Source of the DNA: a virus | Length of the DNA: 25,982 nucleotides | Strand: one strand, 5' to 3' | Virus record (IMG/VR): IMGVR_UViG_3300025646_000315 | Span: 1 to 25,982 of that record | In this document: piece after piece, positions 677 to 25,982 of the stretch | How positions within the stretch are numbered: position 1 is the first letter of the stretch | Layout of the letters: every line of letters starts with the position of its first letter | Notes under the pieces: generated by a model | What the model was told of the DNA's origin: nothing | Databases searched by the model: none | The model's input: the letters and a program-made list of their open reading frames with translations, nothing else | Made by a program: the position numbers and the translations under genes

Positions 677-1452
677 TGATTCCAGGCGTAGTCGCCTCAG
701 CATCAGGCGTAGTCGCAGGCTTCACTGACCCATTCACCGGTACTGGTGCATTGGCGTCAAGGTGGACGAACACGTCAGGGTCTTGGACCCGTGACACTGA
801 TGACGCCTACACGGCTACCGCCGCTTCGTCGTACCCGCTTGCATCATTCGATGCAAACACGAGGAACGTTAGTGTGCGTTCCGAGTATGGGGTGGCGAAC
901 ACGTTTGGTTGGGGTGTTGCGTTTTGGGTGACTGACGCTAACAACTGGTGGGCTGCGGTGGTGGACCGCACAGAGTCTTCGTGTGTTATTGGTTCTACGA
1001 CAGGTTGTTGTGCCTGTGGTGATGGCGGCATTTCTACTGGTTATCCGTCGTGTAACTGTGTTTATTGTGATTGTGGTAGTTGCCCAAGCAATCCGAACTG
1101 TGGTCAAACTCAATATGCGGGAACCTGCACCTACCCCGTTTACGGAACCTGCTACGACTATGTTTTGAAGTTGATGAAGCGCGAATCAGGAGTTGTGACA
1201 ACTGTTGCGACCACAAGTATTGCTTCTGGGAATATTGGCGGCGGTTTGACTGTCGCTTACGTGCAGGCTGTTACAAACGAGGCTGGTCAGATTACGGCTA
1301 CGGCGCAGATGTCAACCGGTGGTGCTGTGGCGTCAATTGTGAATACCCCAAGTTCTCCGGTTCGCACGAACCGTCATGGTATCATTTTGACACCACGCAC
1401 CACTGGCACCCAGGCCGACCGTATTGAAACGTTCATTTACGCACCACAGTGA
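676..1452 (+). CDS. Jelly-roll-like virion protein with cysteine-rich insert
   Basis: A 258-residue protein. The ATG at 676 is preferred because it overlaps the preceding TAA; an in-frame upstream start at 646 would add ten poorly matching residues. Residues about 16-100 (F-T-D-P-F-T-G-T-G, then S-R-W, then W-G-V-A-F-W and N-N-W-W) resemble LamG/concanavalin-type beta-sandwich domains found on phage appendages. Residues 103-159 hold 12 cysteines with many Gly, Ser, Asn and Pro residues. After this insert the beta-rich pattern resumes (Y-D-Y-V-L-K-L) and runs to the end. This looks like a disulfide-rich or metal-binding loop inserted into a carbohydrate-binding-like fold. Position next to the fibre-like gene suggests host recognition. 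Function is inferred; no catalytic motif is visible. Confidence 0.6.
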   Translation: MIPGVVASASGVVAGFTDPFTGTGALASRWTNTSGSWTRDTDDAYTATAASSYPLASFDANTRNVSVRSEYGVANTFGWGVAFWVTDANNWWAAVVDRTESSCVIGSTTGCCACGDGGISTGYPSCNCVYCDCGSCPSNPNCGQTQYAGTCTYPVYGTCYDYVLKLMKRESGVVTTVATTSIASGNIGGGLTVAYVQAVTNEAGQITATAQMSTGGAVASIVNTPSSPVRTNRHGIILTPRTTGTQADRIETFIYAPQ

Positions 1453-1832: not shown

Positions 1833-2063
1833 ATGAAGAAGGAACATTTGGAAATGCTCAAGTCATGGGCAAAAGTATTCGGAGCAGGCGTTGTCGCTCT
1901 CGCCATTGCTGGCGAGCGTGACCCAAAAGCGTTGCTTGCCGCAGGTGTTGCAGCGGTACTGCCTGTGGTTTACAACTATTTGGACCCGAAGGACAAGCGT
2001 TATGGCAAGGTTGCTAAGCCTGTAAAGAAGGCTGCAAAGAAGGCTGTCGCTAAGAAGAAGTAA
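1833..2063 (+). CDS. Small membrane protein, holin-like candidate
   Basis: A 76-residue protein from the ATG at 1833, two bases after the previous stop. It has an N-terminal charged stretch, two hydrophobic segments (about residues 15-27 and 38-51, separated by G-E-R-D-P-K) and a highly basic tail of Lys/Ala/Val repeats ending K-K-K. Two short hydrophobic helices with a basic cytoplasmic tail is the layout of small phage holins, and similar 'LDPKD' hydrophobic proteins occur in actinobacterial phages. Against that, the endolysin lies 18 kb downstream, not next door. It is coupled to the terminase by TAATG. The alternative is a small membrane-associated or DNA-associated virion protein. Confidence 0.5.
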   Translation: MKKEHLEMLKSWAKVFGAGVVALAIAGERDPKALLAAGVAAVLPVVYNYLDPKDKRYGKVAKPVKKAAKKAVAKKK

Positions 2064-3649
2064 TGGAACTTACCGACCTGCTCAATGAGCGGGAATGGCG
2101 TAAATGTCGTGGACCGGAGAACGCGTCCACAGAAGATTTGGTAGCAGCATTTTCTTACTTTTGTGCTACCTACTGGACTATTCGCCATCCTGAGCGCGGA
2201 CGAATTAAATTCGTTCTGCGCGAAGCACAAGAAGACACTGCTTTAGCGTGGATTCAAGAACGATACAGTATTGTTTTGAAAGCCCGTCAAATTGGTTTTT
2301 CTACGCTTGCGGCAGCGTTTGTGTTTTGGGAAACGTTTTTTTGGGGCGACAGGTTTATTGTAATGCTTTCACGCACCGAACGTGAAGCGTCAAAACTTTT
2401 GCAGAAAACCAAATATGGCTACAAGATGATGCCACAGTGGATGAAGGAACGCGGCCCAGAGTTGCTGTCAGATAACCAGTTAAAAATGGTGTTTGCTAAC
2501 GATTCGTCAATTGAGTCTTTGCCTTCAGGTAATGACCCTGCTCGCGGTGAGTCGGTGTACCGTGTAGTGATTGACGAAATGGCGTTCTTGCCTAACGCTG
2601 AAGAGGCATGGGCTTCTATTGAGCCGATTGCCGACGTTGGTGGACGAGTTATTTGCCTTAGTACCGCTAACGGCGAAGGTAACATTTTTCACCAGTTGTG
2701 GGTTGGTTCACAAACGGGAACAAACAGGTTCCGTGGAATCTTTTTTCCTTGGTCTGCTGGTGACCGAGACGAGTCGTGGTACGAGTCGAAGCGTCGCGAC
2801 CTGCCGGACTGGCAGTTGGCGCAAGAGTACCCATCGGACCCAGACGAAGCATTCGTCAGGTCCGGTCGACCAGTGTTCGACCTGGATGCAATTAGGGAAA
2901 TTGAACCAATTGACCCCGACAGGGGTTATTTGCGGAAACTGTCTGGCAGGTCTTCGTACGAGTTTGTTCCTGATGGTGGCGAATTAGCGATTTGGGAGGA
3001 ACCAGCCGAAGGCGAGGTTTATGTTATTGGGGCTGACGTGGCTGAAGGTTTGGGTCATGGGGACTTTAGTTCCGCCCACGTTATTTCGGCTGAAACGGGT
3101 TTGGTGGTTGCTCACTGGCACGGCCACATTGACCCGGACTTGTTCGGGGAAGATGTGCTGGTTGGTTTGGGGTATTTCTACAACTACGCACTTTTGGGTG
3201 TGGAGTCCAACAACCACGGTTTGACGACCTTGAAGGCTTTGCAGCGCGTGGGTTATAGGAACCTGTACAGGAACCGCAAGATGCAGGTTCGTGCCCCTGT
3301 GGCTTCGGAGTCTTTGGGTTGGCGCACGACGTCGATTTCTAAGCCTTTGGCGATTGATGAGTTGAATGCGGCTTTGCGTGACGAATCTGTATTGCTGTTT
3401 GATTCTAAGACGATTGCCGAACTTCGTTCATTTGTGCGTGAGTCAAACGGCAAAATGCACGGCTCACCCCATGACGACAGGGTAATGTCCCTGGCCATCT
3501 GTAACCAGATGCTGAAATACGTTTGGTTGCCCGAATACAGGAACGATTTAGAGCCAAGAAAGAATTCTTTGGATTGGTGGTCCAGGTTCATTGTTGGGGA
3601 CCCAAAACCGCGGAATGCCCCAATTGGGGCTTATAACGTCGTGGATTGA
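2063..3649 (+). CDS. terL: Terminase large subunit (DNA-packaging ATPase/nuclease)
   Basis: A 528-residue protein, normal length for the family. It powers DNA translocation into the procapsid through the portal and cuts the concatemer. ATPase domain: a Walker-A-like segment at about 73-81 (K-A-R-Q-I-G-F-S-T, the variant seen in many TerL proteins, lacking the classical GK[S/T]); Walker B with catalytic acid at 168-172 (V-V-I-D-E); coupling motif at about 200-204 (S-T-A-N-G). RNase-H-like nuclease domain: Asp325 (I-G-A-D-V), Glu381 (G-V-E-S-N) and the H-D-D at 470-472 form the expected acidic cluster. The start overlaps the previous stop (TAATG). No small subunit was recognised nearby; it may lie outside the window or be too divergent. 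Identification is strong. Confidence 0.95.
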   Translation: MELTDLLNEREWRKCRGPENASTEDLVAAFSYFCATYWTIRHPERGRIKFVLREAQEDTALAWIQERYSIVLKARQIGFSTLAAAFVFWETFFWGDRFIVMLSRTEREASKLLQKTKYGYKMMPQWMKERGPELLSDNQLKMVFANDSSIESLPSGNDPARGESVYRVVIDEMAFLPNAEEAWASIEPIADVGGRVICLSTANGEGNIFHQLWVGSQTGTNRFRGIFFPWSAGDRDESWYESKRRDLPDWQLAQEYPSDPDEAFVRSGRPVFDLDAIREIEPIDPDRGYLRKLSGRSSYEFVPDGGELAIWEEPAEGEVYVIGADVAEGLGHGDFSSAHVISAETGLVVAHWHGHIDPDLFGEDVLVGLGYFYNYALLGVESNNHGLTTLKALQRVGYRNLYRNRKMQVRAPVASESLGWRTTSISKPLAIDELNAALRDESVLLFDSKTIAELRSFVRESNGKMHGSPHDDRVMSLAICNQMLKYVWLPEYRNDLEPRKNSLDWWSRFIVGDPKPRNAPIGAYNVVD

Positions 3650-3680
3650 TGGTTTTTGGTAACGAATCAACAGGTTATTG

Positions 3681-3905
3681 ATGAAGAATTTCCGTTGTCT
3701 TGAATGTTTGGCCGAGTTTGTGGCCGACGAACTACCCCGAAGGGGTTCGGTTTGCTTTAAGTGCCATGTGAAAAGTATCCGCCTTGGGTTCACCTACGGG
3801 CAGGAGGACTTTCATGGTCCAACGATTCGTGAGCGTCAACGCAAGACGGTCGAAGACGCCAGAGTTAACGGTTACAACGCTGAACCCGTTACAAACTGGA
3901 TGTAA
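3681..3905 (+). CDS. Small zinc-finger-like protein
   Basis: A 74-residue protein starting at the ATG at 3681, after a 31-base gap with only a modest AGG as ribosome binding site. Two CxxC knuckles (Cys6/Cys9 and Cys25/Cys28) flank a short linker and would bind one zinc ion. The rest is basic and polar with an R-E-R-Q-R-K stretch, which could contact nucleic acid. Short proteins of this type between terminase and portal genes occur in several phage lineages, with no settled function that I know of. The gap upstream contains GGTAACGAATCA (3658-3669), which is nearly repeated upstream of another CxxC gene at 8354-8365. Confidence 0.65.
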   Translation: MKNFRCLECLAEFVADELPRRGSVCFKCHVKSIRLGFTYGQEDFHGPTIRERQRKTVEDARVNGYNAEPVTNWM

Positions 3906-3908
3906 CCG

Positions 3909-4109
3909 ATGGAATGGCTGGTCCCAATTGTTGTTGCCGTAATCACCGGGCCAGTCGTAGTTGTATTGCAGAAACTGCGTAAAGAGAACACTGAGCAACA
4001 TAACCACAACACAATTTTGTTGCGACATATTGGCAGCAGAATTGACCGTATCGGAAGCAAGTTGGACAAACATATTGGCTGGCATGAAGGCCTGAAAGAG
4101 AACGACTAG
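3909..4109 (+). CDS. Small protein with one membrane segment and a coiled coil
   Basis: A 66-residue protein. Residues 3-20 are strongly hydrophobic (L-V-P-I-V-V-A-V-I-T-G-P-V-V-V-V-L) and are followed at once by a charged helical region (K-L-R-K-E-N...R-I-D-R-I-G-S-K-L-D-K) with heptad-like spacing. This one-pass topology with a soluble coiled coil fits an i-spanin-like or class III holin-like protein, or a membrane-anchored assembly factor. Its stop overlaps the GTG start of the portal gene (TAGTG), so it is translated with the portal. The function is unproven. Confidence 0.55.
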   Translation: MEWLVPIVVAVITGPVVVVLQKLRKENTEQHNHNTILLRHIGSRIDRIGSKLDKHIGWHEGLKEND

Positions 4110-5908
4110 TGGCACGAATTTCTAACCGAGAAATCATTTCCCAATACCGCGACAAGATTCAGCAGTCAAAGCGGTGGCGTCAACAGGAAGGTCTTGACGC
4201 AACATGGAAACGAATGATTGACCTTTACCGGGGCAAGCATTTCGAAACAGATTCAGAAACAGACCGCATGCTCATCAACGATGCGTTTGCCACAATTAAC
4301 GTGATTTGGCCCAGCGTGTCGGTTAACTATCCAAAGATTACCGTTAACGCTCGTCGGAGCGAAGACGCGCCGCGAGCGGTGGTTACCGAAGAAATCGTCA
4401 ACTACTGGTGGCGCCACTACGACTGCCAGCGAGAGTTTCGTCGAGCAGTCAAAGACATGCTGATTACTGGACACGGCTGGGTGAAGACCGGTTACCGTTT
4501 TGTTGAGAAGGGTGAAGACGATTACGACAACTCTGACGAGTTGGCTTCGCTTGCGCCAGAATCAATTGCTGAAAGCGATTTGATTATTACGGAAGACCGT
4601 CCGTTTGTGGAGCGCATTTCTCCGTTTGATGTTTTTGTTGACCCGGATGCTACAAGCATGCATGACATCAGGTGGATTGCACAACGCATCCGCCGACCAC
4701 TGTTGGAGGTGCGCAAGGACAAGCGCTATAACGCTCAGGCGCGCCAAGAGGCATCGCCGTCACACTACTCCAAGTTCGGTTTGGACTCCTACCTGCCTCG
4801 CAGGTCCGAGAAGCCCGAAGACGGCTACGTCGAGATTTGGGAGTTCTACGATGTGGACCGCAACAAGATGTCTGTGTTCTGCGACGGTGGCGACAAGTTT
4901 CTTGTTGCCCCGCAAGAAATTCCGTTTGCTTTTGGACACCCATTCGTGTTCATTCCGAACTATCAGGTGCCAGATTTCTTTTACCCGATGGGTGAACTTG
5001 AAGCAATTGAACCGCTTCAGCGCGAACTGAACGAAACTCGTACACAGATGATGAACCACCGCAAGCGGTTCTCGCGTAAATGGTTGTACAAGGAATCAGC
5101 ATTCGACCAGGAAGGTCGAAACATGCTGGAGTCCGACGAGGACAACGTAATGGTTCCCGTCGTGTCCGAGGAACCCCTCGGTGGCATTATCGCACCGATG
5201 CCTGCTGTTATTAGCCCACCTGAGTTCTACAACCAGTCTTCGTTGATTACTGCAGACATTGACCGCATTACCGGCATCTCGGAGTACGCACGTGGTGCTT
5301 TGCCCGAAATCCGCCGCACGGCCACGGAGGCTGGCATCATTCAGGATGCTGCCAACGCTAGGTCGTCCGACAAGTTGGCAATCATTGAGCGTGCCATTGC
5401 TGACGCCGCTCGCAGGCTCGTGATGCTGGCACAGCAGTACATGACTGGCGAGCAGGCGATTCGTGTCTCTGGCAAGAGCAGTTCTAATGCCTGGATGAAG
5501 TTCGACCGGGACTACATTCAAGGCGAATTTGATTTCGAAGTTGAGGCTGGTTCTACACAGCCGATGAACGAATCGTTTCGCCGACAGATGGCTCTTCAGG
5601 TTGTGGACGCTATGGCGCCCTTTGCTACTGCTGGTATCGTGGATATGCAGCGTTTGGCAAAGTATGTGCTGCAGCAGGGGTTCGGCATCAAGAGCGCCGA
5701 GTCGTTTATTGTGGCTCCACAACCACCCGCCCAGCCGGAGGTTGCCCCTCCCCCGACTGCGCCTTCGGCTGGGCTTCCTCCTGGCATGCCGCCAAGCATG
5801 CCTCCGGGCATGCCTCCAGGTGTGGAGGAAGAAATGCCTGAGGGCGAGTTGCCGCCAGAAGTTCTGGCTCAACTCATGCAGGGTGGCATGATGCCCCCTG
5901 GCATGTAA
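4109..5908 (+). CDS. Portal protein
   Basis: A 599-residue protein beginning at GTG 4109, coupled to the previous stop. It would form the dodecameric ring at the capsid vertex that the terminase docks on and that later joins the adaptor. Family features: helical N-terminus with W-K-R-M-I-D-L-Y-R-G-K-H-F, then I-N-V-I-W-P-S-V-S-V-N-Y-P-K-I-T-V; the central 'P-F-D-V-F-V-D-P-D-A' (about residues 172-182); 'Y-P-M-G-E-L-E-A-I-E-P-L-Q-R-E-L-N-E-T-R' in the stem/wing region; and 'G-A-L-P-E-I-R-R-T-A-T-E-A' near residue 400. These patterns and the length fit podovirus and related portals. The last 60 or so residues are rich in Pro, Gly, Met and Glu and probably disordered. Position between terminase and scaffold agrees. 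Confidence 0.9.
   Translation: MARISNREIISQYRDKIQQSKRWRQQEGLDATWKRMIDLYRGKHFETDSETDRMLINDAFATINVIWPSVSVNYPKITVNARRSEDAPRAVVTEEIVNYWWRHYDCQREFRRAVKDMLITGHGWVKTGYRFVEKGEDDYDNSDELASLAPESIAESDLIITEDRPFVERISPFDVFVDPDATSMHDIRWIAQRIRRPLLEVRKDKRYNAQARQEASPSHYSKFGLDSYLPRRSEKPEDGYVEIWEFYDVDRNKMSVFCDGGDKFLVAPQEIPFAFGHPFVFIPNYQVPDFFYPMGELEAIEPLQRELNETRTQMMNHRKRFSRKWLYKESAFDQEGRNMLESDEDNVMVPVVSEEPLGGIIAPMPAVISPPEFYNQSSLITADIDRITGISEYARGALPEIRRTATEAGIIQDAANARSSDKLAIIERAIADAARRLVMLAQQYMTGEQAIRVSGKSSSNAWMKFDRDYIQGEFDFEVEAGSTQPMNESFRRQMALQVVDAMAPFATAGIVDMQRLAKYVLQQGFGIKSAESFIVAPQPPAQPEVAPPPTAPSAGLPPGMPPSMPPGMPPGVEEEMPEGELPPEVLAQLMQGGMMPPGM
5772..5907 (+). repeat. Pro-Gly-Met repeat at the portal C-terminus
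   Basis: The portal tail repeats the unit P-P-G-M / P-P-S-M four times and ends M-M-P-P-G-M. At DNA level the palindrome GCATGC recurs at 5784, 5796 and 5808, each followed by C, with GGCATG again near the stop. Short tandem units like these can change in number by slippage. This is coding sequence, not a separate gene. Confidence 0.7.
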
Positions 5909-12632: not shown

Positions 12633-13679
12633 ATGGTGGACCCAATTGTTCAGGCGATGATTGCAATGCTAGGCGGGGCCGACCCTTCGTCGGCAACGAT
12701 GGACCCGGTGCTTGGGTTGTTGACCAATACGTATCGTCCTGACCCGACATACTCCGAGGAAGAGTTGTACATGCTTAATGCGCCCACAATTCTGCAGGCT
12801 GGTGCAGAGGGTGCTGGTTCTCCACGTGCCATTGCTGCTTCACGTGTGCGTTCTGGTGAACCTGTGTGGAGTATCGCCCAGGACGAGGCTTTGCGCGGCA
12901 ACATTAGTGAGAAGGACTGGAATAAGTTTATTAATCAGTTGGCCAAGGAGCAGGAGTCTGTTCGTGTTGCGCAGTTGAAGCAGGAGTTGAAGCCTGACCA
13001 GTTTGCGGCCAAAAACCTTCCGTCTGTTGATGAGCGTTGGAATGTTGCAAGTTTGATGGGGATTGCTCCGCAGGCTTTTTCTGGTGCGTTGCAGGGTGCG
13101 AGTGAGGCGTTTGGTGAAAGTGAGAGGTTGCAGAATCAACTTGCGAAACTTTCTCAAGGCAAGCAGATTTACGGAAAAGATATTTTGAAAGCCCTTGAGG
13201 ATGAGGTTCGCAAAGAGTTTGCGTCAAAGAAAGAGATTGATAAGTCATCAAAAGAAGTTGATGAACTTTTGAAGAAGCGAACAGAATGGGTGCCGTCGCC
13301 CACACAGGTTATCGGTCGAGGACTTGGCCAAATCGGTAGAGGTATAGGTCGCGCATGGAAGGGTGGTATTGAGGCCCTTTGGTCGGATGAACCAGCAATC
13401 AGAAAAGAAGCCGAAAACCGTTTGCGTCAACTTGCCGCATCTACACCAGCAGGCGAAAAACTTTCCTACACGGTTGCTGCAAGCCCGGCAGAACTTCGAG
13501 CACTCGAACAAAAAATTAGTAAACGCAAGTATGTTCCCGGTACGGCAGAGTCGAAGGCCGCACAGGCCGAGCAGATTGCAAGCCAGTTGGGTTCACAACT
13601 TGAGGCTGCTGGCATTACACCGTTAATGGATGCGTTGCTGCGTTCCGCTGCACTGCGAAAAAGAATGAAGAATGGCTAA
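12633..13679 (+). CDS. Putative internal virion protein with glycine-rich amphipathic segment, 348 aa
   Basis: The ATG at 12633 has AGAAAGG about ten bases upstream; a second Met-free start is not obvious. The N-terminal 20 residues are hydrophobic and small (I-V-Q-A-M-I-A-M-L-G-G-A-D-P). The middle is helical and rich in Gln, Lys and Glu. Residues about 224-242 (V-I-G-R-G-L-G-Q-I-G-R-G-I-G-R-A-W-K) have glycine every three or four positions with Arg on one face, as in membrane-active amphipathic helices. The C-terminus is again helical and Ala/Gln-rich. It overlaps the giant gene by eight bases. It is probably an ejection protein working with the giant protein; a membrane-inserting role is inferred. 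Confidence 0.6.
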   Translation: MVDPIVQAMIAMLGGADPSSATMDPVLGLLTNTYRPDPTYSEEELYMLNAPTILQAGAEGAGSPRAIAASRVRSGEPVWSIAQDEALRGNISEKDWNKFINQLAKEQESVRVAQLKQELKPDQFAAKNLPSVDERWNVASLMGIAPQAFSGALQGASEAFGESERLQNQLAKLSQGKQIYGKDILKALEDEVRKEFASKKEIDKSSKEVDELLKKRTEWVPSPTQVIGRGLGQIGRGIGRAWKGGIEALWSDEPAIRKEAENRLRQLAASTPAGEKLSYTVAASPAELRALEQKISKRKYVPGTAESKAAQAEQIASQLGSQLEAAGITPLMDALLRSAALRKRMKNG

Positions 13680-16600
13680 GAAAAGAGATGAGCGAGCGCT
13701 TTTAAAGTCCCTTGAACTGTTGAACCAGCCGAACAAAACGGCTGTTGCGGGGGGAATTTTGAAGCAGTTGGATTCCCTGCCTAGAACCGCGCCCCCAAAA
13801 CCGGTGTCCGACGGTTCCGAACTTGCGCCAAAACTTGCGTTCAAGGCTCTTGAGACAACTGTTTTGAAGCCACTTCAACTAGTTGATACTGGCCGACGCG
13901 CAATTATTTCTACCGCACGAGAAATTGCTGACCTAATAGATGAGAATCCAAGAACTCGTGCGAGTTTTAACGATTGGTTCCGTCAAACACAAAACGTTAA
14001 TTATGGTTTTGGTACAGCATTTCCTATGTCTGGATGGAAAGGGCGAATCATCGGATTTGTTGGCGACGTCGCACTGGACCCGATTACTTACGCGACGTTT
14101 GGTGGAGCGGTACCTGCTAAGGCCATACTCAAGGGTGGAACAGCAACAATTAAGGCTGGCACCAAAACACGACTAGCAATAGGCAAATATACAACTGGTC
14201 GTGAAGGCAGACAAAAACTGGCATCGTTCGTTAGGGAACGACTCAACATGATGGCTCAACAAGGCGACAGAAATGTTGCCAATTGGGGGGCAAAAGAAGT
14301 CGACACGTTAGTAGGAGAAATTGCTTCTAAGGGCAAGCAAGCGCTTTACAAACATCCATTTCTTTTAGAAGACCTCGGCATTCGAGGACCTGGTATTTAC
14401 TATTTTGGTTCCCGAGTAAAAGTCCCCGGAAGCGGCCCTTTGGCCATGTTTGTTGAAAAGGGTTTAACAAAAGCAAGGCTTGGTGTCGTTGGCACTCAGG
14501 TGGGTGGGGCTTTGATGCGCGCCATTACGCCCAAAGGTGTTGGGAGCATTGACCAATATGGGCCAAACGCAATTCGAAATTTCAGAATTGCATTGTCAAA
14601 AGGAAACCTGCCATCTGAAGAAGTGGGCAAAGTTTTAACCATTCTTGAAGCAGACGACCTCAAAAGAATCAACATTGCGAAATATGGAGAAGAGGCATCC
14701 GATGAAATCGGTGCCGTTGTTGACCAGGCACGAACTACAAGCGTTCCCATGCACAGGCTTCTGGACAAGGTCAAGGACCCCTCTTTGGTTCCGGGAGCAT
14801 CCCCTGATGATGTTCGTTCTGCGCTTGCAATGCGAACAATTTTTAATAACTTTATTGAACGCATAAAAGTACGCGCAAAACAAATCGGTTCACGTGAACC
14901 AGGCGAAATTGTTGACGGATACTTTCCGCGCATGGAAACCGAAGCGTCTATGCAAAATCGTTTGTCTATGGGCGATGAAGCATTTGACGAAATGGTCTAT
15001 GGCGTAGATAAATCGCGCACACAATCCGTGTTCAAAGAACGAGAACTTGGTCAAGGCAAAGTGTGGTTTGGACACATTTTGACCGGAAATGAAACAGTAG
15101 ACGACCTCAACCGACTTGCCAGAAACTCAATTGACCCAGGTAAGAAAAGCGTAAACTTTGATATTTTTGAAACAGACATTGCCAACGTGATGGCAAAATA
15201 TGTTCGTGCATACGCAGAACAATTGGCCACGTATGACATGGTCGAATACCTCACACAACGGCAACTGATTGAATGGATGGACAAGGTCCTCCAAATTGAC
15301 CCGCAGTATGCACGCCAATTTCTTGTGGACGCACCACAACAGCGATTGCAGGAAATGACGGTTGCTTTACGTAATTGGGTTGCCGTAACAAATGACAATA
15401 ACGGCAAACTTTGGGATGCTCTTGACGCCATGCTGGGAGACCGACAGGCAACCCTGGCGGCTTTAAAGGCCGGAGATTTTAGTCAAGAAAATTTGGCTCA
15501 ACTTAAAGCAGCGCTCGCAGACGCTGTTGCGTCGTCCGACGCTGCAAATCAAAATTACATTTCTCTGTTCAGTCAACTAGATGACATCATTGAAGACGTT
15601 GATGGAATTTCAAACTTTGGCATGATTAAGCGCACGCGCGAAAGATTCCAGCAACAACTTGAAGCGCTTAAGCAACGCGCATTAATGCTTGACCAAATGA
15701 GTTCTAGCGAAGTTGGACAGTTAATGCGAGACTTTGATGCTTACACCAAAAGGGTGTCACGTTTTGAACGCGACATAGCAAACCTTGCTGATGCCCAAGT
15801 AATGATTCCAAGAGTTGGCTCTGGTCTATTTGAAAAAATAGATGGCAAAGACATTTACGAAGCGGTAAATAAAATAGCAAGGCTTAGGGGCATACCGGCA
15901 CCCGTTGTTTCTGCCAACCCAGCCTGGACGCCAGCCATGAAGCAGGCGGTCGGACAATTTAATGACGATACTGCAGGAGAAGTTCTTTTTCGTGCACTAA
16001 ACGAAGACACCATGCCAGCATCAATTGACGATGTAATGCGCTACGTCCAGGGACGGATTATTGCAAACGAAGAAGCAATTGGCGCAGGCAAGGTTCAATC
16101 AACATTTTTGACCGACCTCAACAATAACGTGCAGGTCCGTGGCGGAAGAAAAACACAATATGGTATTTGGGCTGAAGCACAACGCTTGATTAGGTCTGGA
16201 GAAACTGTTCGTGGCGTCCACATGATGCAGGACTTGTTGCACCAGCAGGCCTCATTTGCTCAATACATGCAATGGCGTTCGATACTGGAGCCTTACGGAA
16301 TAGAAATTGGCGATGATATTGTTGACGAAATTTTGCGCCGAAACGCGCAACCACTTATTAATGACGCAATTGCTAGAGGCGACCAGACTCGTCTTGCGCA
16401 ACTTACTGACCAAAATAATATTTATGGTCGTTACGGCGGGAAAGATTCCTTTGACCATCCATTCAGTAACTACAGAAAAGTGTCAGATGACGCTGTTATT
16501 TTTGATGAACAACTTGCCGAATTTGAGCAGTGGAGAAAATTAAATAAGTCAAAAGAGGCAGAGGGTCTCAGGATTGGTGAAACCCAAATACAGCGCGAAC

Positions 16601-19600
16601 TAAAGGAACTAACTCCAGAGCAAGCCAAGCAGTACCGAAAGTATAGGGCCACGTTAAGGCGTGTTCAGTTGATGCGTGAAAACGACGTCAAAGTCGCTAG
16701 GGCTGAAGTTAGAAAATTGCGCACACAGCAGGAGGTTGCTTACGCGCCTTTTCAGTCAATTAAGAAAAAAATTGACGAAACATATAAGCCGACCGAATTG
16801 ATTAGAGACGAGCAGGTTCTTGGAACGATTCCCGAACAACAGGTTATTGCCGATGTTGCTGAAGATGCCGTCGACCCGACCGACTCTCTTCAATTTGTCG
16901 GTGCAGATAATTCTGTTTACGTTGTTTCGAAATTGGTTTCAGATGAACAGATACCGGGCATTCAACAAACCGTAAAAAATATTCTTTTGACAAGTCTTGA
17001 AGGCAGGGAAATTTATGATTCTTGGATTACCGCTAACAGAAATTTCCTTGAGGCACTCAACCAATTGTCTTGGGATAAACCGGCGAAAAGAGAGTTTGCG
17101 GCAAAACTTTTGGAGTCGCTTGACGAACACATTGAGATTGTTTACAAGAAAAAAATTACTGGTCTTGAATCTGAAATGCGTGAGGCAGAAAACCAGGTTT
17201 TGCGTCTTCTCAGTGATTTGAATCTTATTGAAAGCAACATGGGCGTAATGCCCAGGGTTTTCATTCGTTCTGAAAGGGGTCAGGCGGCAACGCAGGACAT
17301 TTTGATGGCCGGTGTTGACCGTCCCATCGCGGCTGCCAAAGGCACCGCAAAAGGACGCATGAACAAGCAGGAGGCACTGGCTGTTCACGAGGAACTAATT
17401 AACTCCGACGCATACCCGATTGCTAAAAGCCAGCAAAGAGCCGGGAACATTGCTTACAGTTTGGCAGAACTTTCCTATAACCAAAGACGAACAATTGGAA
17501 CAAGATTCACTCAAGAGGAATGGGAAGACATTGTAAATGGTCGAACCATAAAACTTGGTGTCAACAAAAAAATTGATGCAATAATTAAAACTGCACACAA
17601 TAGATTTAAGGCTTTGCATCGCGCTGAATGGGACGCATTGGGCGGCGAGGTTTCAGACGAAAATGTTGTGCAGCGTTTAGTACAAGACCTTATTGCCGAA
17701 AATCCCGCCAATGCTGCAGACCCATCAATTGTTGCTGCTAGGCGCGGAGAGATAGCGGCACAATGGGCCGATACTGATGGCTACAACATGCTGAGTAAAA
17801 TTAATGATGCACGTGCGGAATGGATTGCAGCCGACCAACTAGAAAAATCAAAGAACGGTCAATTCTTGATGGACCGCGCAGCACAAACCGGTGAAAGACT
17901 TGAAAGAAATCTTCAAAACCTCTCCCTAGAGTTGGACGAATGGACTGCTGAATCCGCAAAAGAACTAGACCGACTTTACAACATTGCTGTTAAGGCTTCT
18001 AAAGAACAACAATTTTTGGACGACTCTGTACCCGAATCCAAAATTGCGGAATACGAAAGAGTTTATTCTGACCTTGTTGCTCGAAGCAAATACGGTCAAC
18101 AAAAAATTGACGCCGTTTTGTCTACGCCACTTGAACGCAAAAGCCCAGAGCAGTTGGCTGACGAAATTCGAATTCTTCGAAAACTTCGTGAAGACGGAGT
18201 AGAAACCCCATTAGTTAAAGAACGTGGGTCGCGTGCGCTTGAACGTGAACGCACCAGATTGCTGCAGGGCCCACCAGACGATTTAACTCCAGAACAACTG
18301 AAAGAACTTGCTCGCATGCGTGGCTCGGCACGAGCCGCAAAAGAAGCGGAAATGCGCAGCGAAGCCAACCAAAATGCCCTGGATAGGGTTCTGCACCAAG
18401 AAGCAGCAGTTGAAAGCAAAAACTCAAAGGTTGCCAGGTGGCTTGAAGCAAAAGAAGCAGAAAGCATTGATGAGCCATACAAGGCACTCGAAGTTAAGCG
18501 ACAACTTGACCTAGAGGCAGGGCAGCGAACCGTTCCTTATCGTCAAGCAAATTTTAAAACTCAAGTTGATGAAGAACGCATAACAAATCTGCAAAAAGAA
18601 CTTGAAGAACTACTGGCCCCAACACGCACCAGTCTTGTGGACGCATCAAGAGGTGAAGTCAAAGCCGCCGCCCGCCGCGTCCAGCAGGCGCAGGCGGTCT
18701 ACGACCAGGCACAAAACCTGGCCACGTACACCCCCGAAAGCGCAAAACAGATTGAAGACGACATCCGAGTTATATCCGGACTGCTCACACAGTTTGAACA
18801 AAAGGTTGCGCCCACAGTTAAGTCGCAGGCAGAGCGGGCCCAGATTGTCCGAGAGGCCGCCAAAAGAAGAGGCCAACTTTACGAAACTCTGGAAGAGGGC
18901 CGTGTCCGCATGGACGACGCCCTTGAACTCGTCAAGCACATTGGAACAAAAGACGAAATTGATGCAATTGATGCGGTAATACTTGCGCAAATTGATGCTG
19001 AAACACAGTTTTTTGACGCGGTTGCAAACATGAGTCAAGCGGCATTTGACAGACAGATGCTGCAAAGCGTTCAGGCATCCATAAGCAAAGGCGCCGTGCT
19101 CATGCCAAACGGCAAACTGCGTTTACCTAACGGTTCCATAATTGATGGTGTTCCAGTCGATGCTGTAGCAGAGTCAAACAGGCGTGTACTTAAAGAAGGC
19201 TTTGTTGTACTTAACGAAAAGTACTACCCCGAACTACAGGCAACCGAAGAGTTTGCCGCGCTGTGGAACAACGCCACCAGAACAGCAGACCCAGAATGGA
19301 TACGCAAACTGGCGTTGTACGTTGGCCCATACACCAAAGCATGGAAAGCATTTGCCGTCCTCAGTCCTGGTTTCCACGTCCGAAACGCAATTGGCAACGC
19401 CGTAACATTTACCATTTCTGGCGGAAACATCGATAACCTTATCCGCGTCACGCCCATCTATGCATCATGGGCTAAAGCAAAAAGAGCCGGAACGAGATGG
19501 GAAGTTTGGCTTAGAACACAACCACCCGAACTGATTCCAGTACTTGAAGAAGCAAGACTTGGAGCACTCGGCTCCGGAGGCGGCATCTTCAGCGAAACCT

Positions 19601-20292
19601 TTAAAGAAGCAACCGGTGGAAGCAGAATCTACGACAACTGGCTTACACGGAAAAACTATGCTTTGGGTCAAGAGGCAGACAACTATATGCGATTTGCACT
19701 TGCATTCGACACCGCAGTAAAAGGCGGAGACGCAGGACTTGCCCAAGCAAGAGTAAAACGTTTTTACTTTGATTACGAAGACCTTTCCAACTTGGATAAA
19801 GTCATGCGTCAAATCATCCCATTCTGGCTGTGGACCACCAGAAACATGACAATGCAAATCCAAAACATGTGGCTCAACCCACGCCCATACCTCATTTACG
19901 AAAGCCTGAAAAGAAACTTCCGAGACAAAGAACGACCAGACCCACCGTTCGTCCGCGAACTTGGAGGATTCAAACTCCCATTCGGAGAAGGCCTATTCCT
20001 CATGCCCGACATCGGATTCAACCGACTTCAAAATGACGTCAAAATGTTTTACGACCCCAAAGCATTCCTCAACAAAGCCAACCCGCTCATCAAAATTCCA
20101 GCAGAACAAATCATGGGCGAAACCGCTTTTGGAGGAAAACCATTGACCACAACCGAAGAACGAGTGCTCGCCGCGCTACGCGCAACAGCACCACCCGTCG
20201 GACAAGCCGAACGACTCTTCGCCAACGAAGGACTCAGCCAACTCAACGCATGGCTCGGATACCTCGGCTCCCCAGTACGCAAATACAACTAG
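13672..20292 (+). CDS. Giant internal virion / ejection-type protein, 2206 aa
   Basis: The largest gene of the window. The ATG at 13672 overlaps the previous gene. N-terminal 450 residues: globular and partly hydrophobic, including L-D-P-I-T-Y-A-T-F-G-G (about 134-144) and G-I-Y-Y-F-G-S-R-V (near 243), motifs I associate with very large podovirus virion proteins. Residues about 500-1850 are mainly long charged helices rich in Gln, Glu, Lys and Ala. The C-terminal 350 residues become hydrophobic and aromatic: 'S-P-G-F-H-V-R-N-A-I-G-N-A' (about 1897), 'F-Y-F-D-Y-E-D-L-S' (near 2028) and 'I-P-F-W-L-W-T-T-R-N-M' (about 2046). No lysozyme, transglycosylase or polymerase signature was found. It likely passes into the cell with the DNA or builds the trans-envelope channel. 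It is inferred, not proven; the alternative is a polyvalent-type protein with a hidden enzyme domain. Confidence 0.7.
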   Translation: MAKKRDERALLKSLELLNQPNKTAVAGGILKQLDSLPRTAPPKPVSDGSELAPKLAFKALETTVLKPLQLVDTGRRAIISTAREIADLIDENPRTRASFNDWFRQTQNVNYGFGTAFPMSGWKGRIIGFVGDVALDPITYATFGGAVPAKAILKGGTATIKAGTKTRLAIGKYTTGREGRQKLASFVRERLNMMAQQGDRNVANWGAKEVDTLVGEIASKGKQALYKHPFLLEDLGIRGPGIYYFGSRVKVPGSGPLAMFVEKGLTKARLGVVGTQVGGALMRAITPKGVGSIDQYGPNAIRNFRIALSKGNLPSEEVGKVLTILEADDLKRINIAKYGEEASDEIGAVVDQARTTSVPMHRLLDKVKDPSLVPGASPDDVRSALAMRTIFNNFIERIKVRAKQIGSREPGEIVDGYFPRMETEASMQNRLSMGDEAFDEMVYGVDKSRTQSVFKERELGQGKVWFGHILTGNETVDDLNRLARNSIDPGKKSVNFDIFETDIANVMAKYVRAYAEQLATYDMVEYLTQRQLIEWMDKVLQIDPQYARQFLVDAPQQRLQEMTVALRNWVAVTNDNNGKLWDALDAMLGDRQATLAALKAGDFSQENLAQLKAALADAVASSDAANQNYISLFSQLDDIIEDVDGISNFGMIKRTRERFQQQLEALKQRALMLDQMSSSEVGQLMRDFDAYTKRVSRFERDIANLADAQVMIPRVGSGLFEKIDGKDIYEAVNKIARLRGIPAPVVSANPAWTPAMKQAVGQFNDDTAGEVLFRALNEDTMPASIDDVMRYVQGRIIANEEAIGAGKVQSTFLTDLNNNVQVRGGRKTQYGIWAEAQRLIRSGETVRGVHMMQDLLHQQASFAQYMQWRSILEPYGIEIGDDIVDEILRRNAQPLINDAIARGDQTRLAQLTDQNNIYGRYGGKDSFDHPFSNYRKVSDDAVIFDEQLAEFEQWRKLNKSKEAEGLRIGETQIQRELKELTPEQAKQYRKYRATLRRVQLMRENDVKVARAEVRKLRTQQEVAYAPFQSIKKKIDETYKPTELIRDEQVLGTIPEQQVIADVAEDAVDPTDSLQFVGADNSVYVVSKLVSDEQIPGIQQTVKNILLTSLEGREIYDSWITANRNFLEALNQLSWDKPAKREFAAKLLESLDEHIEIVYKKKITGLESEMREAENQVLRLLSDLNLIESNMGVMPRVFIRSERGQAATQDILMAGVDRPIAAAKGTAKGRMNKQEALAVHEELINSDAYPIAKSQQRAGNIAYSLAELSYNQRRTIGTRFTQEEWEDIVNGRTIKLGVNKKIDAIIKTAHNRFKALHRAEWDALGGEVSDENVVQRLVQDLIAENPANAADPSIVAARRGEIAAQWADTDGYNMLSKINDARAEWIAADQLEKSKNGQFLMDRAAQTGERLERNLQNLSLELDEWTAESAKELDRLYNIAVKASKEQQFLDDSVPESKIAEYERVYSDLVARSKYGQQKIDAVLSTPLERKSPEQLADEIRILRKLREDGVETPLVKERGSRALERERTRLLQGPPDDLTPEQLKELARMRGSARAAKEAEMRSEANQNALDRVLHQEAAVESKNSKVARWLEAKEAESIDEPYKALEVKRQLDLEAGQRTVPYRQANFKTQVDEERITNLQKELEELLAPTRTSLVDASRGEVKAAARRVQQAQAVYDQAQNLATYTPESAKQIEDDIRVISGLLTQFEQKVAPTVKSQAERAQIVREAAKRRGQLYETLEEGRVRMDDALELVKHIGTKDEIDAIDAVILAQIDAETQFFDAVANMSQAAFDRQMLQSVQASISKGAVLMPNGKLRLPNGSIIDGVPVDAVAESNRRVLKEGFVVLNEKYYPELQATEEFAALWNNATRTADPEWIRKLALYVGPYTKAWKAFAVLSPGFHVRNAIGNAVTFTISGGNIDNLIRVTPIYASWAKAKRAGTRWEVWLRTQPPELIPVLEEARLGALGSGGGIFSETFKEATGGSRIYDNWLTRKNYALGQEADNYMRFALAFDTAVKGGDAGLAQARVKRFYFDYEDLSNLDKVMRQIIPFWLWTTRNMTMQIQNMWLNPRPYLIYESLKRNFRDKERPDPPFVRELGGFKLPFGEGLFLMPDIGFNRLQNDVKMFYDPKAFLNKANPLIKIPAEQIMGETAFGGKPLTTTEERVLAALRATAPPVGQAERLFANEGLSQLNAWLGYLGSPVRKYN

Positions 20293-25203: not shown

Positions 25204-25628
25204 TACTTGCTACGCGGCGGCCAGTACGCCTTCTCGGCATCAACAGCCTTGAAGTGCGGACGCTTATTGGTCGCATTGGCACCATCACGATTATCATAAA
25301 TTTTGGTGACGCCATCACGCTTACAAGCCTTAATCAACCAATCAGGCAGAGCACCATGCTGCTTGCCGACAACAGTCAAGCCACCCGAAGTGGTTGGAGC
25401 GCTAACGTCTTCACCGTTGAAGGCATCCTTGACCATTGCAACAACAGTTGCATTTTGTTTCTCGGCAGCAACAACATCACCATAAATCGTATCCATGATG
25501 ATGTCATTAATTGAAGAGAACAACGTGGCGAACTCGCCAATACGCTCTTCAACCCCGATTGACTTGTCAGTCAAATCTGCAGCAATCTTTGCACAGACCT
25601 GAGTGATAATTGCCCTATCTTTATCCAT
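25203..25628 (-). CDS. Hypothetical replication-block protein, 141 aa
   Basis: Starts at the ATG overlapping the nuclease stop (TAATG). The N-terminal 75 residues are helical (A-K-I-A-A-D-L-T-D-K-S-I...I-G-E-F-A-T-L-F-S-S-I), the middle is a Ser/Thr/Gly linker, and the C-terminal 45 residues read 'L-P-D-W-L-I-K-A-C-K-R-D-G-V-T-K-I-Y-D-N-R-D', then 'K-R-P-H-F-K-A', ending Y-W-P-P-R-S-K. This 'WL...DNR...P-x-F-K...WPP' ending recurs in phage proteins of replication blocks; I cannot name its function. Binding of single-stranded DNA is a guess from position between nuclease and helicase. Confidence 0.6.
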   Translation of the reverse strand: MDKDRAIITQVCAKIAADLTDKSIGVEERIGEFATLFSSINDIIMDTIYGDVVAAEKQNATVVAMVKDAFNGEDVSAPTTSGGLTVVGKQHGALPDWLIKACKRDGVTKIYDNRDGANATNKRPHFKAVDAEKAYWPPRSK

Positions 25629-25982
25629 TACGCCTCCTCAGCGCTATTAGTACGCTCCGAAATAAAGGAGCCTTTACACATCGACCAAACAGGACACCAC
25701 CGCTCAGAGCAGAGATGATGCTGGTCGTTCACCGGCCACCTTTCTTGTGGCAGATAAATCTTACTCAACAAAATACTGTTAATCAACGCAGTCGCCTGCG
25801 TAACAACCCACTTGGCATGCTCGGGCTTACGCTTCACCCGAACAATCTGACCCGAAGAAGAAGCATTGCGAATCATCACACCAAAATTAAACTCAAGCGG
25901 ATATTCCAACACACCCAACTGCACAGCAGCCTCAGCATAAATAGCAGACTGAATATTTTGAATCTGCTTTTCATTTTCATTG
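25628..25982 (-). CDS. Cas4/RecB-like nuclease, C-terminal part (5' end outside window)
   Basis: The reading frame is open from the window edge; the in-frame GTG at 25924 is internal, because the frame continues upstream to 25981 with a helical, Gln/Ala-rich stretch (N-E-K-Q-I-Q-N-I-Q-S-A-I-Y). About 117 residues are visible. The pattern 'A-x-Y-A-E-A-A', then 'F-N-F-G-V-M-I-R-N', 'R-V-K-R-K', and a C-terminal cysteine cluster C-S-E-R-W-C-P-V-W-S-M-C fits the end of PD-(D/E)XK nucleases of the Cas4/RecB type, where C-terminal cysteines help bind an iron-sulfur cluster. The catalytic motifs are beyond the window. Likely a 5'-3' exonuclease used in recombination. Confidence 0.65.
   Translation of the reverse strand, partial: NENEKQIQNIQSAIYAEAAVQLGVLEYPLEFNFGVMIRNASSSGQIVRVKRKPEHAKWVVTQATALINSILLSKIYLPQERWPVNDQHHLCSERWCPVWSMCKGSFISERTNSAEEA

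Follow-up and report, generated by a model that had tools for sequence, protein, structure and literature searches.

A cysteine-rich hairpin insert in a predicted lectin-fold protein of uncultivated phages suggests a tail adhesin with a hypervariable, disulfide-locked knob

Why would a phage protein carry twelve cysteines within 57 residues? The question is raised by a 258-amino-acid protein (P0001; ORF 676–1452), which we describe, from the ORF call and its AlphaFold model, as a lectin-fold adhesin with a cysteine-rich insert. It is encoded in the window, the 25,982-base IMG/VR virus record analysed here over its whole length, in which terminase, portal and major capsid genes are also present. 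Its cysteines (residues 103, 111, 112, 114, 126, 128, 131, 133, 136, 142, 151 and 159) all lie within residues 103–159, that is bases 982–1152, exactly as counted in the initial annotation, and the rest of the protein has none. The proteins elsewhere in the window contain ~0.6% cysteine on average, and at this background rate the chance of 12 cysteines in 57 residues is p ~4e-15, or ~3e-11 once all positions are allowed for; the background includes one gene (25628–25982) read out of frame, the only effect of which is to inflate it. Compared with close relatives the insert has a dN/dS well below 1 (dN 0.28 and dS 1.94 between the window and L001), which indicates that the 676–1452 frame is translated. 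This gene, the parts of it described below and its upstream neighbour are all on the plus strand.

The AlphaFold (AF2) model of the protein (pLDDT 87.8, pTM 0.82) gives the cysteines a structural context. The N-terminal half of the predicted lectin-fold core (residues 16–100, 721–975), delimited by HMM boundaries and modelled with pLDDT 92–98 in most blocks, ends in a conserved DANNWWAAV hairpin strand. An ascending stalk strand (residues 90–111, 943–1008) extends this hairpin strand, and a descending strand (residues 150–170, 1123–1185) leads back to the core, the C-terminal half of which (residues 171–258, 1186–1449) is defined by HMM boundaries and AlphaFold together. Between the two strands lies the knob (residues 112–149, 1009–1122), a segment of low confidence (pLDDT ~58–64) that holds eight of the twelve cysteines (112, 114, 126, 128, 131, 133, 136 and 142). 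All relatives share a single interruption site in the core, between 'DANNWWAAV' and 'Y.YvLkL.K...GtV'. One homologue, L045, has no insert: a two-residue turn occupies the site that accommodates 57 residues in the window protein, and in its model (pLDDT 89.9) this hairpin is made of strands 91–98 and 101–108. Taken together, the L045 turn and the AlphaFold strands suggest that the insert lengthens the core hairpin into a stalk and tops this stalk with a knob. In these models the cysteine region is thus a true insert at the tip of a core beta-hairpin, in agreement with the initial annotation, which had read it as an insert within a beta-sandwich-like protein and had envisaged homologues that lack it. 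Nor does it turn out to be a set of invariant cysteines belonging to a known domain, as insert length (~54 to ~417 amino acids) and cysteine number (0 to 46) vary widely across the family, without any match in Pfam or NCBIfam. Finally, the positions of Cys103 (982–984) and Cys159 (1150–1152) add up to 262, as do those of Cys111 (1006–1008) and Cys151 (1126–1128), so that both pairs fit one antiparallel hairpin register and, judging from residue positions, are candidate stalk disulfides. In most inserts of the family the outermost cysteines are nearly equally deep from either end.

The adhesin models are all-beta, two-sheet antiparallel sandwiches (pLDDT 88–90), and Foldseek matches them to L-type lectins (VIP36, legume lectins), CBM66, the CBM2 of the phage J-1 evolved Dit and Douge gp20. 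We therefore predict a ConA/LamG-like lectin fold for the core, by structural likeness only and without a matching sequence profile; the L-type lectins, CBM66 and the J-1 Dit CBM2 share the ConA-like sandwich, but their sequence similarity to the adhesin is undetectable in a PDB profile search. The closest phage structure is the central fibre protein gp20 of mycobacteriophage Douge (PDB 8ZDP/8ZDQ; TM 0.69 to the insert-free core), in which a sandwich domain of lectin/CBM type is likewise found, although the two are only 10–14% identical over the matched region. Douge central fibre domains have been shown experimentally to bind host glycans (PMC13033339).

With the 676–1452 protein alone as query 27 IMG/VR loci were found, and 80 with an alignment; three alignments of divergent relatives added further members. 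Profile searches of Pfam, NCBIfam and PDB gave no named family, and PHROGs gave only a weak match to phrog_14419 in 6 of 58 members, none of them confident. Relatives were found neither in INPHARED (tblastn with five different members as queries) nor in two scans of GTDB contigs, which leaves the family without an isolate or a host; it is seen here in IMG/VR uncultivated phage contigs only. Structural relatives in BFVD are labelled uncultured Caudovirales phage and, further off, actinophage minor tail proteins. No obvious counterpart was present among the annotated genes inspected in the Manatee Spring podovirus MW202803, the nearest phage by terminase (53% identity), and the open PMC literature, the scope of our search as distinct from subscription papers and preprints, yielded no phage protein matching the stalk and cysteine-knob description.

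The immediate upstream neighbour of the adhesin gene (101–676) encodes a tail-fibre/minor-tail-like protein (PHROG 21510, 8780 and 18179), and its stop overlaps the adhesin start by one base. Among the genes upstream of 63 loci, many match minor-tail, tail-fibre or virion-structural PHROGs, while the genes downstream are mixed. L045 itself runs on into an fn3 and a Gly-rich fibre-type domain, and fn3 is also found in L025 and L093. Several contigs carry adhesin paralogues (three in the L160/L292 contig, two in that of L108/L187), and the knobs read in these differ. A 2OG-Fe(II) oxygenase gene lies downstream in L261 (4821–5405) and in four similar loci; this enzyme could modify adhesin residues.

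The cysteines of the inserts follow a strict parity. When each insert is extended a few residues beyond its profile boundaries, which brings in cysteines at the edges such as Cys159, the number of cysteines is even in all 62 distinct cysteine-bearing inserts of the discovery set and in all 39 of a held-out set fetched later, with up to 46 cysteines. Across both sets the even:odd ratio is 101:0, against about 50:50 for thirteen other residue types in the same inserts. In 54 disjoint nearest-neighbour pairs of inserts, cysteine positions are altered in 36 and totals differ in 29, never by an odd number. Cysteine makes up 11.9% of the insert and 0.07% of the core, with one extra cysteine in the core, outside the insert, in 5 of 65 discovery-set domains, and in close pairs no other insert residue is as well conserved (95% versus 65%). 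Unpaired cysteines thus appear to be selected against within the insert, which is expected if every cysteine pairs within its own chain. The longest example, in L213 (within ORF 2959–4806), has 417 residues and 46 cysteines, again an even number, arranged in tandem units of about 10 residues (CATYSTVPGN- and YPCNATN-like); it represents knob growth through repeat expansion. Other inserts are cysteine-free with alternating tyrosines (YTYAYTYTY; L025, L026, L093, L143 and L264), and three insert types of this Tyr-rich kind (L025, L026 and L093) indicate that some members must do without disulfides.

The knob is also the most variable part of an otherwise conserved neighbourhood. Identity along the locus falls to its minimum at 1021–1140 against all four relatives compared, with nucleotide identities of 0.37–0.60 in this stretch and mostly 0.65–0.95 in the flanks. 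The insert dN is often 3–8 times the core dN, with dN/dS still below 1. This variability is not uniform across the family, since a few pairs, L197 and L198 among them, have inserts as conserved as the core or more so. Inserts and cores may furthermore differ in history. Between L086 and L107 or L119 the insert is 94% identical in amino acids and the core 75–77%; a loop segment of L005 recurs in L034 and L307 despite a much more diverged core; and L123 and L261 have in common a 24-residue segment with four cysteines (56 of 72 nucleotides). Loop segments that are alike at the DNA level across otherwise diverged backbones make for an apparent sharing of segments, part of which could be convergence, the stretches being short, repetitive and compositionally biased. 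In the targets of diversity-generating retroelements (DGRs; Mtd type), too, a phage adhesin carries a recognition loop that is hypervariable, a role that we propose for the knob as well, but the protein described here varies by indels and segment swaps, and on a lectin sandwich rather than a C-type lectin fold. A DGR origin of the knob variation is unsupported, as reverse transcriptase (RVT_1) was found in none of the 32 family contigs, some of which may be fragments, while the controls were positive.

How these properties are to be explained depends first on the state of the cysteines, for which the initial annotation had left a choice between a disulfide knot and metal binding. A metallothionein- or zinc-ribbon-like insert with zinc or iron-sulfur sites would account for the CxC, CC and CxxC spacings that occur in the inserts, some metal clusters are compatible with even cysteine numbers, and two zinc-ribbon-like small proteins are encoded in the same window. 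However, 31 of the 65 discovery-set inserts have a cysteine count that is no multiple of four, the CC, C.C and C..C spacings are below rather than above shuffled expectation, histidine and lysine each represent 0.6% of insert residues (Tyr, Thr, Ser, Gly and Asn being high), cysteines differ between relatives in even steps without a fixed motif, and cysteine-free inserts exist. In counts, which show no bias towards multiples of four, as in spacings and composition, the inserts do not look like a metal-binding cluster, whose cysteines would come in fours with conserved spacing or with histidines, and we regard metal sites as very unlikely. Parity and paired cysteine changes point instead to internal disulfides, so that of the two original options the disulfide is strongly favoured and the metal disfavoured.

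Disulfides might have a structural role only, stiffening or protecting the appendage or cross-linking virion partners. Phage tails are indeed proven to be rigidified by disulfide networks, as in phage Milano, where disulfides lock the tail by joining sheath subunits (PMC10811340), and the family occurs widely among phages of the environment, for which durability matters. The adhesin resembles Milano in having putative disulfides in a phage tail assembly, but these are predicted inside one hypervariable loop and not between sheath subunits; a purely structural part should be conserved, whereas nothing else in the locus varies as much as the knob, and even parity within single chains speaks against intermolecular bridges through single cysteines. 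A purely structural role is therefore unlikely in our judgement. At the other extreme, the insert could be expendable sequence of low complexity that is weakly constrained, drifts and has no specific function, a reading in line with the Tyr/Thr/Ser/Gly/Asn-rich composition, the internal repeats of some members (L213), the length variation and the one natural loss (L045). This we consider very improbable, given that even parity in 101 of 101 inserts, 95% cysteine conservation and a dN/dS below 1 together argue for selection on a folded, oxidised product.

The explanation that we think probable is a tail adhesin with a ConA/LamG-like sandwich, a two-strand stalk and a hypervariable, disulfide-locked recognition knob. 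The hairpin-tip insert, the even cysteines, the hypervariability confined to the knob, the apparent sharing of segments, the tail-gene neighbourhood and the predicted lectin fold are computed; from there we infer disulfide formation, virion location and receptor binding, and hypervariability, gene context and fold suggest a role in host recognition. In such a protein, one hairpin of the lectin sandwich would be drawn out into a two-stranded stalk presenting the knob, which, alone or with the lectin face, would touch the host surface. In the host cytoplasm the newly made cysteines would be reduced; they would bond with one another inside the knob and between the stalk strands (e.g. C103–C159 and C111–C151), probably when released into oxidising water or later. 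With disulfides, almost any loop sequence could keep a fixed shape even though it lacks a hydrophobic core, and the knob would consequently be free to change while the core stays fixed. It would be remodelled through substitution, indels, repeat expansion and segment exchange, and selection would purge versions with unpaired cysteines.

This design would work like the bovine ultralong CDR H3, by analogy and not by homology. The stalk and knob anatomy of the latter (PMC5994613) has in common with the adhesin a beta-ribbon stalk leaving a beta-sandwich, a small disulfide knob (a predicted one in the adhesin), variable cysteine number and position, and richness in Tyr, Gly and Ser. The adhesin differs in that its scaffold is a viral lectin-type sandwich and not an Ig V domain, that its variation has evolved from one phage to another and is not somatic, that its inserts reach 417 amino acids and 46 cysteines, and that its parity is stricter: 84% of bovine heavy chains have even cysteines, a proportion taken as disulfide evidence (PMC7366855). 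A wider proposal is that uncultivated phages use a general device of equivalent design, in which a beta stalk on a lectin-fold scaffold displays disulfide knobs that can be swapped for one another. The knobs would diversify as phages acquire substitutions, expand repeats and exchange segments among themselves, all within an even-cysteine rule that is nearly absolute, and some genomes would carry two or three copies that differ; for this broader claim we see the chances as evenly balanced. If true, viruses would have arrived independently at the binding design known from cow antibodies, a stalk with a disulfide knob, and the diversity of a recognition system could be read straight from metagenomes. 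The even-cysteine rule offers a sequence-only sign of an oxidised loop in a protein made in the bacterial cytoplasm, and opens virion disulfide chemistry and the matching of knobs to hosts to direct testing; the inserts also provide a large set of naturally occurring small folds rich in cysteine.

Some other features of the window deserve mention. The two small zinc-ribbon-like proteins are encoded near packaging genes, at 1588–1830 and 3678–3905, and the former matches DUF6171. At window positions 2041–2100, L001, L002, L003 and L005 have 98–185 bases more than the window directly before the terminase gene. Lastly, the protein encoded at 13672–20292 is 2206 residues long and entirely free of cysteine; PHROGs match it only weakly, over the first 776 residues, and it is perhaps an internal virion protein.
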